Part shown: positions 666 through 61,587 of the stretch, piece after piece | Layout: every line of letters begins with the position of its first letter | How positions within the stretch are numbered: position 1 is the stretch's first letter | DNA from: Actinoplanes sp. L3-i22 | Lineage (GTDB): Bacteria; Actinomycetota; Actinomycetes; Mycobacteriales; Micromonosporaceae | Length of the DNA: 64,000 bases | Reading direction: 5' to 3' | Assembly (NCBI RefSeq): GCF_019704555.1 | Contig: NZ_AP024745.1 | Span: 6,146,501 to 6,210,500 of the forward strand | Made by a program: the position numbers and the translations under genes | The notes under the pieces: generated by a model | The model's database searches: none | The model's input: only the letters and a program-made list of their open reading frames with translations | Told to the model about the DNA's origin: nothing

Positions 666-806
666 CCCCCTCTGTCATACCCACAAACGGGGACTTCAGA
701 GTCGCCTGCCCGCGCAGTTCGGGTGCCTGTAGAGATTCCGGGGAGGAGTTGCCCCTTCGGCGCCCGTGCTCGTCGATGTGTCGAGACCCGGGTCTCTCCC
801 ACGCGG
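666..806 (-). promoter_or_regulatory. Glycine riboswitch (single visible aptamer) of gcvP
   Basis: Read on the minus strand, the leader shows the conserved glycine aptamer blocks in order: GTGGGAGAGACC (802-791), GCGCCGAAGGGGCAACTCC (763-745), ATCTCTACAGGCACCCGAA (735-717) and GACAGAGGGGG (676-666). These are the P1/P3 core strings of the glycine riboswitch class. Only one full aptamer is visible, so this looks like the single-aptamer type rather than the tandem one. It ends about 38 bp before the gcvP start, which fits translational or transcriptional control of glycine cleavage. Confidence 0.9.
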
Positions 807-862
807 CTGGCAACCAACCTACCAGTGGACATGACCAAGATCGGTACTCCTAGGGTGGAGCT

Positions 863-58529: not shown

Positions 58530-59444
58530 ATGCGGATCGGCATCATGATCGGAGAGGTGCGCGGGCCCGCCACCGCCGACGACCTGCGCGCCCAGGCCGC
58601 CGCGGCGGACGGGCTGGCCGCTGTGTGGTCGGCGCAGGCCCTGGGCTGGGACGCGCTCACCGCGCTGGTCCTCGCCGCCGGGCAGACGCCGACGGCCGAG
58701 CTGGGGACGGCCGTCGTGCCGGTCCGGCAGCGGCATCCACTGACGCTGGCCGGCCAGGCGCTCAGCGCGCAGGCCGCCACCGGCAACCGCCTGACCCTGG
58801 GGATCGGCGCCGGGATCGGGGCGATGCTGACCGGGATGTACGGGCTGGCGGCCGACCGCCCGGTGGCCTACCTGCGGGAGTACCTGTCCGTGCTGCGGCC
58901 ACTGCTGCGCGGCGAGCAGGTCGAGCACCACGGCGAGATGATCACGGCGGTGGGGACGGCGGCGATCCCGGGGACCGAGCCGCCGCCGGTGCTGCTCGCG
59001 GCGCTGGGTGAGCGCATGCTGCGGCTGGCCGGCGAGGCCGCCGACGGGACGGTCACCTGGATGGCCGGGCGGCGGACCCTGGAGACGCACGTGGTGCCGC
59101 TGATCACCGCCGCGGCGGCGTCCCCGCCACGGATCGTGGCCGGGCTGCCGGTGACGGTGACCGCCGATGTGGACGACGCCCGGGAGCGGATCGCCCGGTA
59201 CTACGGGATGGCCGCCCGGGTGCCCGAGTACCGGGCGACGCTCGACCGCGAGGGGGTGGCCGGGCCGGGCGACGTGGCGCTCGCCGGGGACGAGAGCGCG
59301 GTCGCGCGGCAGCTGGGACTGCTGGCCGAGGCGGGGGTGACCGACTTCGCCGCGGCTCCTTTCGGGACGGTCGCGGAACAGGCTCGGACGGTTCGGCTGC
59401 TGCGGGCGGTGGGGGCTCCGGGCGTACCCGATAATCGGGTTTGA
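58530..59444 (+). CDS. F420-dependent LLM-class oxidoreductase (TIGR03564-type)
   Basis: This 304-residue luciferase-like monooxygenase-family enzyme starts MRIGIMIGEVRGPATADDLRAQAAAADGLAAVWSAQALGWDAL and contains LGTAVVPVRQRHPLTLAGQALSAQAATGNRLTLGIGAGIGAM (the conserved GxGxG area) and VTWMAGRRTLETHVVPLI. The pattern fits deazaflavin F420-dependent dehydrogenases/reductases of mycobacteria and relatives. GGAGGGTGAG lies just before the ATG. TetR-controlled expression suggests an inducible role on a xenobiotic; the substrate is unknown. Confidence 0.9.
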   Translation: MRIGIMIGEVRGPATADDLRAQAAAADGLAAVWSAQALGWDALTALVLAAGQTPTAELGTAVVPVRQRHPLTLAGQALSAQAATGNRLTLGIGAGIGAMLTGMYGLAADRPVAYLREYLSVLRPLLRGEQVEHHGEMITAVGTAAIPGTEPPPVLLAALGERMLRLAGEAADGTVTWMAGRRTLETHVVPLITAAAASPPRIVAGLPVTVTADVDDARERIARYYGMAARVPEYRATLDREGVAGPGDVALAGDESAVARQLGLLAEAGVTDFAAAPFGTVAEQARTVRLLRAVGAPGVPDNRV

Positions 59445-59525
59445 TCTGTCGGGCCGAAGGCTGTGGATAACCGTTCGGGGATGTCGCGGGCGAGTGCTAA
59501 CGTTCGCGGGCAGAAAGGGGGCACC

Positions 59526-60257
59526 GTGCCAAAGCTGAACCAGATCATCGCGGTCGAGAAAGGCGTCAAGAGCAAGGCTTTCGCCGATCTCAGCGACGCG
59601 CACCACGCCGTGCAGAAGACCGCGCCGCTGGCCGGCATCTCCCGCACCTATCAGCCGAAGGACGAGGAGGGCGAGCAGCTGCCCGCCGAGTCGACCCGGG
59701 TGCAGATCAAGTCCGAGGAGATCCTGCGCGACGTCGGTAATACGTTGACGCGCCTGTTCGACGTGACCGCGACGAAGGACTGGACGAACTGCGTGGCCCG
59801 CGCCGACGTGGTGGTCGACGGCCGCACGATCGCGGCTCAGGTGCCGGTGACCTACCTGCTCTTCCTGGAGAAGCAGCTCGTCGATCTGCACACGTTCGTG
59901 AAGAAGCTGCCGGTGCTCGACGCGGCCGAGTCCTGGGTCCGCGACGACTCCACGGACAGCTGGCGGACCGAGCCGGTGCGCACCAACCGGACCAAGAAGG
60001 TGCCGCGCAACCACGTCAAGGCGGAGGCCACCGAGAAGCACCCGGCCCAGGTCGAGGTGTATTACGAGGACGTGACGGTCGGTTACTGGACGACCGTGAA
60101 GTTCTCCGGGGCGCTGCCGGCGAAGCGGGTCAACGAGATCCTGGACCGGGTGATCACGCTGCAGACCGCGGTCAAGTTCGCGCGTGAGGAGGCCAACAAC
60201 ACCGAGGTCACCGACGAACGGGTCGGCGCGGCGGTGTTCGGCTACCTGTTCGGATGA
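59526..60257 (+). CDS. Uncharacterised conserved protein (possibly DUF7873)
   Basis: This 243-residue soluble protein of unknown function has the recurring pattern of a known actinobacterial family that I tentatively place as DUF7873. It begins VPKLNQIIAVEKGVKSKAFADLSDAHHAVQKTAPLAGISRTYQP, contains VPVTYLLFLEKQLVDLHTFVKKLPVLDAAESWVRDD and ends RVGAAVFGYLFG. The GTG at 59526 follows AAAGGGGGC; upstream ATGs lack a ribosome site. The stop is followed directly by structured, tRNA-like RNA sequence, and in this orientation the gene and the RNAs could be co-transcribed. Its function could therefore relate to that array. Confidence 0.72.
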   Translation: MPKLNQIIAVEKGVKSKAFADLSDAHHAVQKTAPLAGISRTYQPKDEEGEQLPAESTRVQIKSEEILRDVGNTLTRLFDVTATKDWTNCVARADVVVDGRTIAAQVPVTYLLFLEKQLVDLHTFVKKLPVLDAAESWVRDDSTDSWRTEPVRTNRTKKVPRNHVKAEATEKHPAQVEVYYEDVTVGYWTTVKFSGALPAKRVNEILDRVITLQTAVKFAREEANNTEVTDERVGAAVFGYLFG

Positions 60258-60265
60258 CACACAGA

Positions 60266-60329
60266 CTCCCCGTGGGAGCGCGGGGATGCGCCGGCAACGG
60301 CGCAAAAGCTGACAACTGAAGTTGAAGCT
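60266..60329 (+). other. Structured leader with three hairpins before the tRNA-like units
   Basis: Three consecutive stems: CTCCC/GGGAG (60266-60278), GCGCCG/CGGCGC closed by a GCAA tetraloop (60288-60303), and AGCT...AGCT enclosing CAAC-TGAA-GTTG (60307-60329). They sit directly between the protein gene and the first tRNA-like unit and may be 5' parts of one RNA. Confidence 0.6.
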
Positions 60330-60335
60330 GATGAC

Positions 60336-60421
60336 GCCGGTGACAGTGCGGGTTCAAATCCCGCCCCCCACACTTCCGGGTGGGGGTAGCCCAAATCTGG
60401 CAGAGGCAGCCGGCCTGAAAC
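60336..60421 (+). tRNA. Putative circularly permuted tRNA, unit A (3' half before 5' half)
   Basis: In order on the plus strand: GCCGG (anticodon-stem 3' strand, 60336-60340), variable TGACAGT, T-stem GCGGG and CCCGC around loop TTCAAAT (60348-60364), acceptor 3' strand CCCCCAC (60365-60371), A, linker CTTCCGG, then acceptor 5' strand GTGGGGG (60380-60386), TA, D-arm GCCC...GGC with GG, and anticodon-stem 5' strand CCGGC (60410-60414) followed by CTGAAAC. Acceptor pairs 7/7, anticodon stem 5/5 (6/6 with a G-U extension), T-arm 5/5. The loop reading CU-GAA-A would suggest a GAA (Phe-type) anticodon if the 5' half carries it. No CCA is encoded. Processing in bacteria is unproven. Confidence 0.75.
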
Positions 60422-60484
60422 TCAGATTCTCGCTCCAATGTCAGCATTCACCACTGATCACCGGATCGAACGGGTAGGGACGAC

Positions 60485-60563
60485 GACAGCGGATGCCGGT
60501 TCAAGTCCGGCCCGCCGTGCTTCGAACGGCGGTAGTTTAATGGCAAAACACGCTGTCTTGAGA
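60485..60563 (+). tRNA. Putative circularly permuted tRNA, unit B
   Basis: GACAGCG (60485-60491) pairs 7/7 with CGCTGTC (60551-60557); T-arm GCCGG-TTCAAGT-CCGGC is perfect (60495-60511); acceptor 3' strand CCGCCGT (60512-60518) pairs 7/7 with ACGGCGG (60526-60532), joined by GCTTCGA. TA follows, then D-arm GTTT-AATGGCA-AAAC (60535-60549), 4/4. The loop after the stem reads CTTGAGA, so a UGA-type anticodon is possible if the U33 register is right. GGATC (60463-60467) and GATCC (60566-60570) outside the unit are also complementary and could bring the ends together. Confidence 0.75.
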
Positions 60564-60599
60564 ATGATCCCCGCTCTTAAAAGTGCTGGTGTGTGCAAT

Positions 60600-61587
60600 T
60601 CAGTGGTAAGTCGAGCCCCGGTGGATGGCCATTCCGCCGGGGCTCACCAAATGGCAGACCGGCCGCGTGCGGCGTAGGTAGGACCAGGCGGCCACGCTCA
60701 GCGCGACGCCGTAGACGGCGAACGCGCCGACGCCCACCCAAATCACCAGCAGCGCGTCGGCCGGGGTGGGAAAGTCACCCGCGGCGATCGTGATCACGCC
60801 GGCCGTGCCGAGCGCGGCGTAGACGATGCCGGCCGCTCCGTAGGGGGCGAGCGTGGCCGCGCCGAGGAACGCGGGACCGAGCAACAGCAGGCGAGGCATC
60901 CGCCGCCACGGCCGGACCAGGGCGAACAGCAGGAGCACCCCGGCGGCGGCCAGCAGTGCCGTGGCGTCGAGGCCCCAGCGTTCCAGGGTGAGCCAGATTC
61001 CGGACGCGCCGTTGCGCTCGGCGATGGCCACCATCTGTGCGCCGCTGATCCCGGCGAAGGCTCCGCCCAGTGCCCAGGTCGTCTTCATCGCCGCGTACGG
61101 CAGGAACGCCGCCGCGCCCAGGTAGGCGAGCAGGCGGACGCGGCGCGGCGCGGGTGACGGCTCCGCCCGAGGTGTGCGCGGCGCCGCACCCCGGGCAGCT
61201 GCCGGACGTGGCCCAAGCGGTGACGACGAGCAGCACCGCGGCGAGCGCCCGGTTCACCGTGGCCAGCGGGCTGTCGACCGTCTGGTTGAACGCGAGGGTG
61301 ATGACATCCATCAGCAGGCCGAACGCCGCCGCGCCGCTCACCACGGCCGACGCCACCAGGCCGGCCCGGGCGAGCCGCCGGCCCGGATGCCGGAGGGTGG
61401 CCCAGGCCGAGATCGCCGCCAGGCCGGCCGCCGCGACGACAACCCCGTTCAGGCCGACCGGCAACGGGGTGTCGGCCCGGTAGAACACCGCGGCTCCGGC
61501 AGATGTGCAGGTCAGGCCAAAGATTGCGTACACCGCCGACCAGACCAGGATGGCTTGTACGCGCCGGCGGCGTGCGTCGTCAGTCAT
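60600..61587 (-). pseudogene. Membrane protein gene with a frameshift near 61140
   Basis: Two overlapping frames make one protein. From ATG 61587: MTDDARRRRVQAILVWSAVYAIFGLTCTSAGAAVFYRADTPLP..., five or so hydrophobic helices, then GSCPGCGAAHTSGG. After about 61150 the sequence continues in another frame as RVRLLAYLGAAAFLPYAAMKTTWALGGAFAGISGAQMVAIAERNGASG and ends RRTRPVCHLVSPGGMAIHRGSTYH. The change falls in the tract GCGCCGCGCCGCG (61136-61152, minus), prone to slippage or sequencing error. If real, the gene is broken; the tail overlaps the terminator hairpin of the tRNA-like array. Probably an integral membrane protein of unknown role. Confidence 0.65.
60613..60645. terminator. Strong GC hairpin after the tRNA-like array
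   Basis: GAGCCCCGG (60613-60621) pairs exactly with CCGGGGCTC (60637-60645), a 9-bp GC-rich stem with a 15-nt loop. A D-arm-like string (TTCAGTGGTAAGTC) precedes it, so a third, degenerate tRNA-like unit is possible. It probably terminates the array and, on the other strand, overlaps the coding end of the convergent membrane gene. No T-run follows. Confidence 0.65.

Follow-up and report, generated by a model that had tools for sequence, protein, structure and literature searches.

A predicted DUF7873-linked RNA with two permuted tRNA-like modules in Actinoplanes sp. L3-i22, its relatives and phages

We have analysed a stretch of 64,000 nucleotides from the genome of Actinoplanes sp. L3-i22 (contig NZ_AP024745.1, positions 6,146,501 to 6,210,500 of the forward strand), hereafter called the window, in which position 1 is the first nucleotide. 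Directly downstream of the stop codon of a gene encoding a DUF7873 protein there is probably a structured RNA of about 390 nt, as judged from its predicted fold, which carries two transfer RNA (tRNA)-like modules in circularly permuted order. Computation reveals the sequence of these modules, a covarying structure, their place right after DUF7873 and a strict co-occurrence with this gene in the genomes searched. Together, the data suggest that the DUF7873/RNA pair is a so far undescribed system related to the bacterial Y RNA machines. The explanation that we favour, with reasonable though far from full confidence, is that the locus encodes a two-part ribonucleoprotein (RNP), made of DUF7873 and a noncoding RNA of about 390 nt with two arms, each arm working like a bacterial Y RNA.

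Two permuted tRNA-like modules in one predicted RNA

An earlier note, made from the letters of the window, had claimed two tandem permuted tRNA-like units, and our analysis confirms them. Both modules lie on the plus strand (60336-60557), with the T-arm and the 3' acceptor strand ahead of the 5' acceptor strand and the D-arm. Module 1 begins with the 3' strand of an anticodon-stem equivalent (60336-60341, 6 bp with 60409-60414), followed by the T-arm (60348-60364, stem pairs 5/5, loop TTCAAAT), the 3' acceptor strand (60365-60371, pairing 7/7 with 60380-60386), a linker that caps the acceptor stem (60372-60379, an A73-like base and then CTTCCGG) and a segment (60380-60414) with the 5' acceptor strand (60380-60386), TA at tRNA positions 8-9, a D-arm with GG and the 5' strand of the anticodon stem. 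Module 2 is built in the same way, with its anticodon-stem 3' strand at 60485-60491 (7 bp with 60551-60557), the T-arm at 60495-60511 (5/5 pairs, loop TTCAAGT), the 3' acceptor strand at 60512-60518 (7/7 pairs with 60526-60532), the capping linker GCTTCGA at 60519-60525 and, within 60526-60557, the 5' acceptor strand (60526-60532), TA (8-9), the D-arm with GG and the anticodon-stem 5' strand. The linkers had been described as starting with CTTC; this motif is present in both, but a single discriminator-like base (A or G) precedes it.

That chance would hardly produce such a pair, as was argued before, is borne out. A strict detector (a 5-bp T-stem with a TTCRAN loop, a 7-nt acceptor strand, a linker of 3-60 nt, a matching 5' acceptor strand, then T followed by A or G) returned exactly two matches in the window, which are the two modules. 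It found nothing on the minus strand, and 20,000 dinucleotide shuffles of 60258-60657 gave no match either. ARAGORN reported neither a tRNA nor a transfer-messenger RNA (tmRNA) on the unrotated window, and called both modules tRNA once they were rotated to tRNA order and given a CCA. When applied to distinct modules with a D-arm from DUF7873 loci, it called 145 of 150 as tRNA after rotation, none of the 150 without rotation and 112 of 450 chimeras with halves swapped between modules; because of this last control the test has to be regarded as lenient. Of the 162 distinct modules 150 have a D-stem with GG in the loop, but so do 880 of 4200 random TA sites, and this test is therefore lenient too when taken alone.

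The modules do lie in the interval 60336-60570 given by the earlier note, but the predicted RNA is larger, extending from about 60266 to 60652 on the plus strand, and its location downstream of DUF7873 is kept in relatives. Folded alone, 60266-60652 has a minimum free energy of -177.7 kcal/mol (z -5.42), a value as low being reached by none of 100 shuffles. In this single-sequence fold two long arms each bear a tRNA-like tip whose acceptor end is closed. They are preceded by two 5' hairpins (60267-60304, i.e. 60267-60286 and 60287-60304), which are also present in the consensus of 46 actinobacterial sequences and missing from a 17-sequence viral consensus; the latter recovers the modules and parts of arm 2. 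Arm 1 (60308-60445) carries module 1 on a basal helix formed by 60308-60314 with 60439-60445, a long-range helix that is also found in the actinobacterial consensus. Arm 2 (60450-60607), which carries module 2, is a continuous multi-helix arm in the RNAalifold structure of 31 sequences, and scores 163.1 bits with R1, a covariance model of arm 2 that has the window among its training sequences. A 13-bp 3' hairpin (60613-60645), with no T-run after it, is the probable end of the RNA in the single-sequence fold. The conserved sequence that separates the modules is probably not protein-coding, since inspection of homologous sequences by eye showed no shared frame.

The modules are probably not decoding tRNAs. 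Their anticodon side is a continuous helix of 6 bp (module 1) or 7 bp (module 2) in which a 7-nt loop is missing, and the isotypes that ARAGORN assigned to the 145 rotated modules are scattered, covering every one of the 20 amino acids and 4 further labels, an observation of supporting value only since the loops were joined artificially. On these two grounds functional permuted tRNAs, which the earlier note had considered, are rejected. The argument is weaker for some phage modules, in which the anticodon stem is 5 bp or less. The note had alternatively proposed tRNA mimics with a closed acceptor end and an open anticodon loop; the closed acceptor end stands, whereas the supposed open side is helical. 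A decoy or sensor acting on anticodon nucleases through such a loop thus finds no basis in the window, where the stem continues as a helical arm, and bait for these nucleases is disfavoured.

Conservation and association with DUF7873

The gene directly upstream (59526-60257, plus strand, start codon GTG) encodes a 243-residue protein that belongs to DUF7873 (PF25283), with a Pfam score of 395.3 bits against a cut-off of 27 (E 1.5e-118). A search for the same unit order beside this type of gene in other genomes had been suggested from the start. We assembled 206 DUF7873 loci from relatives, the class, named genomes (best 80 of 498) and viral contigs (best 80 of 126), with L042 excluded as a copy of L001 and some genomes counted twice; the distinct modules, including those of six annotated phage loci, number 162. 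In 188 of the 206 loci the 700 nt that follow DUF7873 contain at least one module, and in 124 they contain two; the minus strand of this interval has none. The strict detector gave 312 modules in the 142.7 kb downstream of DUF7873, versus 4 in 2.08 Mb elsewhere.

Covariation in homologues, another check put forward with the original observation, was measured in two sets of 42 and 33 diverse modules (the second being alignment A4). T and acceptor stems are 100% paired in these sets by selection, and only their variety of pair types is informative. The D-stem, which is outside the detector criteria, shows compensatory changes and is paired in 97.6% and 97.0% of cells. The covariation score reached 0.591 and 0.659, and the best slid control gave 0.201 and 0.220. 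The anticodon-stem helix, taken module by module, has a median of 5 bp versus 3 in mismatched controls. For arm 2, 36 of the 40 pairs predicted by RNAalifold from 31 sequences show compensatory changes, and the helices enclosing module 1 in arm 1 are recovered in the 46 actinobacterial sequences and in the single window sequence.

The association is strict at the level of whole genomes. Model R1 was trained on 31 DUF7873-linked sequences; its searches over more than 40 genomes used stricter filters, so that a diverged RNA without DUF7873 could escape. Full-length R1 matches of at least 69 bits occur in 16 of 60 relatives (Actinoplanes sp. L3-i22 included), exactly those with a full-length DUF7873, the 17th DUF7873 relative having a fragment with a stop. 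Likewise, they occur in 36 of 394 genomes of the class, the same 36 that have a full-length DUF7873; the 37th DUF7873 match (G254) consists of two fragments.

DUF7873 and the RNA are found together again in many bacteria from soil, and also in phages whose hosts are unrelated. DUF7873 was found in 73 records of annotated phages (31.6-58.4% identity among the 60 matches listed), whose hosts are Vibrio, Gordonia, Rhizobium, Klebsiella, Serratia, Arthrobacter, Pseudanabaena, Rhodococcus and Microcoleus. Modules follow the gene in all six annotated phages examined: two within 310 nt in Arthrobacter phage Mimi, Gordonia phage GodonK and Klebsiella phage FBKp24, one within 220 nt in Vibrio phage D505 and Rhizobium phage TM21B, and two at about 600 and 780 nt in Pseudanabaena phage PA-SR01. 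DUF7873 is located inside a tRNA array in TM21B and GodonK and at the end of one in Mimi; tRNA genes are near it in FBKp24 and D505, and none is annotated nearby in PA-SR01. Around DUF7873 in the Gordonia phage GodonK locus (L212), the tRNA array contains two HNH endonuclease genes. In the Rhizobium phage RHph_TM21B locus (L211), which has DUF7873 and a tRNA array, a TROVE protein is encoded about 5 kb downstream, and three more permuted-module matches lie 4.0-4.8 kb downstream of DUF7873. TROVE proteins occur in some jumbo phages, according to an excerpt of PMC7824862. In Klebsiella phage FBKp24 (L210, 7018-7097) the public annotation has a tRNA-Sup(TTA) that overlaps with permuted module 2 and could be an annotation error.

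In a DUF7873 tree, 30 of 37 chromosomal rows fall in one supported clade together with 3 IMG/VR rows, and the chromosomal/viral label changes 6 times, at least 3 of these changes being forced. Within the limits set by midpoint rooting, a bootstrap that has not settled, long branches and IMG/VR contigs whose viral status is uncertain, the chromosomal DUF7873 proteins appear as few groups nested in viral diversity, in line with capture from phages.

Several observations weigh against the RNP explanation that we favour. For pairs changed on both sides in A4, 5 of 500 shuffles reach the observed value, while none does so for the other measures. The anticodon-stem columns, with a variable region differing in length, are paired in just 56.7% and 53.5% of cells. 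In a mixed actinobacterial and viral alignment (A5) the arm 1 helices outside the module were not recovered, the module alone being found. No promoter or terminator pattern matched in 59200-60900. Only a single module is present in 64 of the 206 loci, so the two heads may be dispensable. A strict module is missing in 18 of the 206 loci. A relaxed detector found something in 10 of these 18, of which L176 and L191 only with linkers of 64-75 nt, and gave 2 matches elsewhere on the plus strand of the 18 loci; L190 has just 131 nt of sequence and L017 is a gene fragment. Six of them (L142, L154, L159, L172, L193, L194) have a full gene and enough sequence, and are empty even with the relaxed detector. 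As to the layout of the modules, six loci of class genomes (L020, L027, L037, L039, L043, L045) have kept module 2, with module 1 undetected, and a distant actinobacterial relative (L016, 1155-1220, minus strand) has one permuted module and then, at the place of module 2, a tRNA element in normal order (Rfam tRNA, 49.6 bits).

Relation to bacterial Y RNA and other known RNAs

The earlier note knew of no permuted tRNA case in bacteria. There is one, since the bacterial Y RNA structure PDB 6CU1 matches tRNA through circular permutation, as stated in a passage of PMC13355120, and it is to this type of RNA that the modules are closest. At a loose cut-off the best of 4227 Rfam families for both modules is YrlA, with 30.4 bits (60470-60577) and 27.2 bits (60324-60432). 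YrlA matches of 28.2-37.9 bits were also obtained in 8 of 11 further DUF7873 loci, and none at E <= 0.5 in the other three (L137, L187, L196). Both window modules miss the gathering score of YrlA (RF02553), which is 69 bits. At curated Rfam cut-offs the window contains only a glycine riboswitch far from the modules (705-811, minus strand, 52.9 bits against a cut-off of 32).

Weaker, module-only matches of R1, where examined, are mostly tRNA clusters, or single modules directly 5' of Ro60 genes. The latter arrangement was found in four relatives (G005, G017, G018, G023); Pfam TROVE was run on two of their Ro60 proteins, with one of which the remaining two share 80% and 63% identity. In five loci of relatives TROVE-linked modules score 37-41.5 bits as YrlA, below the gathering score as well. 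Since these R1-matched modules beside Ro60 score as YrlA, the genus has the known Ro60/YrlA pair and the DUF7873-linked module is of that type. The genome of Actinoplanes sp. L3-i22 gave no TROVE match and no match to the Ro60 of one relative, and with this same query Ro60 is missing in 14 of the 16 relatives with DUF7873, Actinoplanes sp. L3-i22 included.

Thirteen of the weak R1 regions of relatives, which were examined, comprise 8 ordinary tRNA clusters (L222-L224, L230-L234), 4 YrlA-type/Ro60 loci (L225-L228; in L227 an ARAGORN tRNA-Lys call overlaps the YrlA-type module) and L229, beside a TROVE match. Nine regions from the class search comprise five tandem tRNA-Asn loci (L241-L244, L248), modules near TROVE matches in L247 and L249, and the remaining L245 and L246. 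The junctions of the tandem tRNA-Asn genes, with spacers of 6-7 nt, show a permuted-like order and are a trap for permuted-tRNA searches; they illustrate how a permuted module could arise. In L249 (1051-1260, genome G331) two permuted modules about 146 nt apart are located upstream of TROVE matches (G331:C40:212866-213789), and tandem YrlA-type modules may thus also occur by Ro60. TROVE was found in 24 of 37 DUF7873 genomes versus 53 of 394 overall (Fisher p 6e-15), and RtcB in 37 of 37 versus 177 of 394 (overlap by eye); both comparisons are confounded by phylogeny and nothing is drawn from them.

According to part of PMC8394870, YrlA is an RNA of 90-150 nt with D, T and acceptor arms that is modified by DusA and TruB and tethers Rsr to PNPase. 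The DUF7873-linked RNA resembles YrlA with Ro60/Rsr in its permuted tRNA-like domain with these three arms, in the long stem that replaces the anticodon arm and in the adjacency of the RNA gene to the gene of its protein. However, the predicted RNA is two-armed and about 390 nt long, whereas YrlA is a single stem of 90-150 nt; its partner gene is DUF7873 and not Ro60; and its modules score 27-38 bits against the Rfam cut-off of 69. As the gathering score, the Ro60 neighbour and the single 90-150 nt stem all fail, we rejected filing it as YrlA. What is new in comparison with known Y RNA is the double-armed form, the DUF7873 partner and the presence in phages of Actinobacteria, Vibrio, Klebsiella, Rhizobium and a cyanobacterium.

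Other known RNAs are more distant. Permuted tRNA genes of archaea and algae share the order T-arm, 3' acceptor, linker, 5' acceptor and D-arm, but the window modules have neither an anticodon loop nor a common decoding identity, and their stem extends as an arm. Two-piece permuted tmRNA is likewise a bacterial RNA with a permuted tRNA-like end and a possible CCA after the 3' acceptor strand; the DUF7873-linked modules differ from it by their full D-arm, and the window matched the tmRNA model with a T-arm fragment only (12.7 bits over 17 model positions, cut-off 47). GOLLD and ROOL are large structured RNAs of phages, and the DUF7873-linked RNA, unlike them, had no Rfam match to these families. 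GOLLD has been linked to Mycobacterium tRNA arrays, as indicated by a title cited in PMC9569102.

Competing explanations and proposed role

A decoy function is unlikely in our view, although it has several points in its favour. The RNA would be phage-born and would titrate tRNA-acting enzymes of the host or of rivals, such as elbow- or acceptor-directed nucleases or modifying toxins, and would later have been kept by Actinobacteria. DUF7873 is indeed present in phages of unrelated hosts, with modules in the six phages examined and in many viral contigs, the chromosomal proteins form few clusters inside viral diversity, and a competitive-inhibitor role has been proposed for YrlA in a passage of PMC7790460. 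However, anticodon nucleases are unlikely targets of window modules without an anticodon loop, and the strict pairing with a dedicated protein in chromosomes (36/36 genomes) suggests an RNP beyond bait, both being compatible.

A somewhat smaller chance is given to heads that are opened by processing. The acceptor loop would be cut by RNase P together with a 3' processing enzyme, CCA ends would be left, and the mature RNA would consist of several pieces, with either one or two heads that can be charged; two-piece permuted tmRNA is a bacterial precedent for such a molecule (described in part of PMC3978253). Among the distinct modules, 40 of 84 viral ones and 12 of 66 chromosomal ones have N-CCA after the 3' acceptor strand, 52 of 150 in all and far more than the 1 in 64 expected, and a model of permuted betaproteobacterial tmRNA weakly matched a Klebsiella phage locus (24.5 bits against a cut-off of 84). 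On the other hand, CCA is missing in 98 of the 150, caps in other loci are short, with linkers down to 4 nt that are typical of a loop cap, and CCA could be a relic of tandem tRNA duplication such as that of the tandem tRNA-Asn genes with their 6-7 nt spacers. Because CCA is missing in 54 of the 66 chromosomal modules, capped heads are favoured over heads opened by processing in the mature RNA. We are more doubtful still of a bolder proposal, namely a new RNP class in phages of Actinobacteria, Proteobacteria and cyanobacteria, domesticated in Actinobacteria, in which two heads processed to CCA ends would jointly engage the machinery of translation or of tRNA repair, for instance as two charged or tRNA-site-filling heads on one protein.

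It is improbable that the RNA is a regulatory element in the 3' untranslated region of the DUF7873 mRNA, with tRNA-like folds that bind DUF7873 or tRNA enzymes and control their own gene. Modules within 700 nt are always downstream and on the same strand, and in the window no promoter match separates gene and RNA; but the size, the 5' and 3' hairpins and the long-range arms would rather resemble a free RNA, Y RNA genes likewise adjoin their protein, and no regulatory switch is visible. Weakest is the strict reading as permuted tRNA genes, with anticodon halves spliced and ligated and the acceptor loop removed to give working tRNAs, which we regard as most improbable: all tRNA arms are present, ARAGORN accepts the rotated modules, many linkers start with N-CCA and several phage copies are in or beside tRNA arrays, but the anticodon stem of the window modules has no loop, arm 2 continues as covarying helices and the scattered isotypes give no common decoding identity.

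We thus return to the two-part RNP. Each arm would consist of a long helical stem in place of the anticodon arm, with a tip formed by a permuted tRNA fold in which a short loop caps the acceptor end. The RNA would be transcribed and stable, and DUF7873 would bind its arms, in the role that Ro60 has for YrlA. Enzymes that recognise the elbow of tRNA could read the tRNA-like tips, and these tips may serve to tether or gate an effector that acts in RNA decay or repair. The benefit would arise when tRNAs or other RNAs are damaged, or when a phage with many tRNAs takes over translation. As for the DUF7873 protein itself, its best AlphaFold model is a confident one, with a predicted local distance difference test score (pLDDT) of 92.2 and a predicted template-modelling (TM) score of 0.68, the five models spanning pLDDT 92.2 to 65.3. 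Comparison of this model with folds in the PDB returned nothing at E <= 0.001, a PDB sequence search nothing under E 0.1, and a fold search of a viral library a single match (4.6e-4, TM-score 0.23). With an isoelectric point of 6.25 the protein is overall not basic. No description of DUF7873 or its RNA turned up in searches of open-licence literature, most subscription literature being outside the scope of the search.

If the proposed RNP is correct, permuted tRNA mimicry, which is known in bacteria from Ro60 and Y RNA, would extend beyond that system, to a different protein partner and to an RNA with two heads. DUF7873 would gain a testable role, and large phages with tRNA arrays would be tied to RNA surveillance or repair. 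The family would also offer enough material for a study of how permuted mimics arise from tRNA genes, by tandem tRNA duplication with CCA as a relic.
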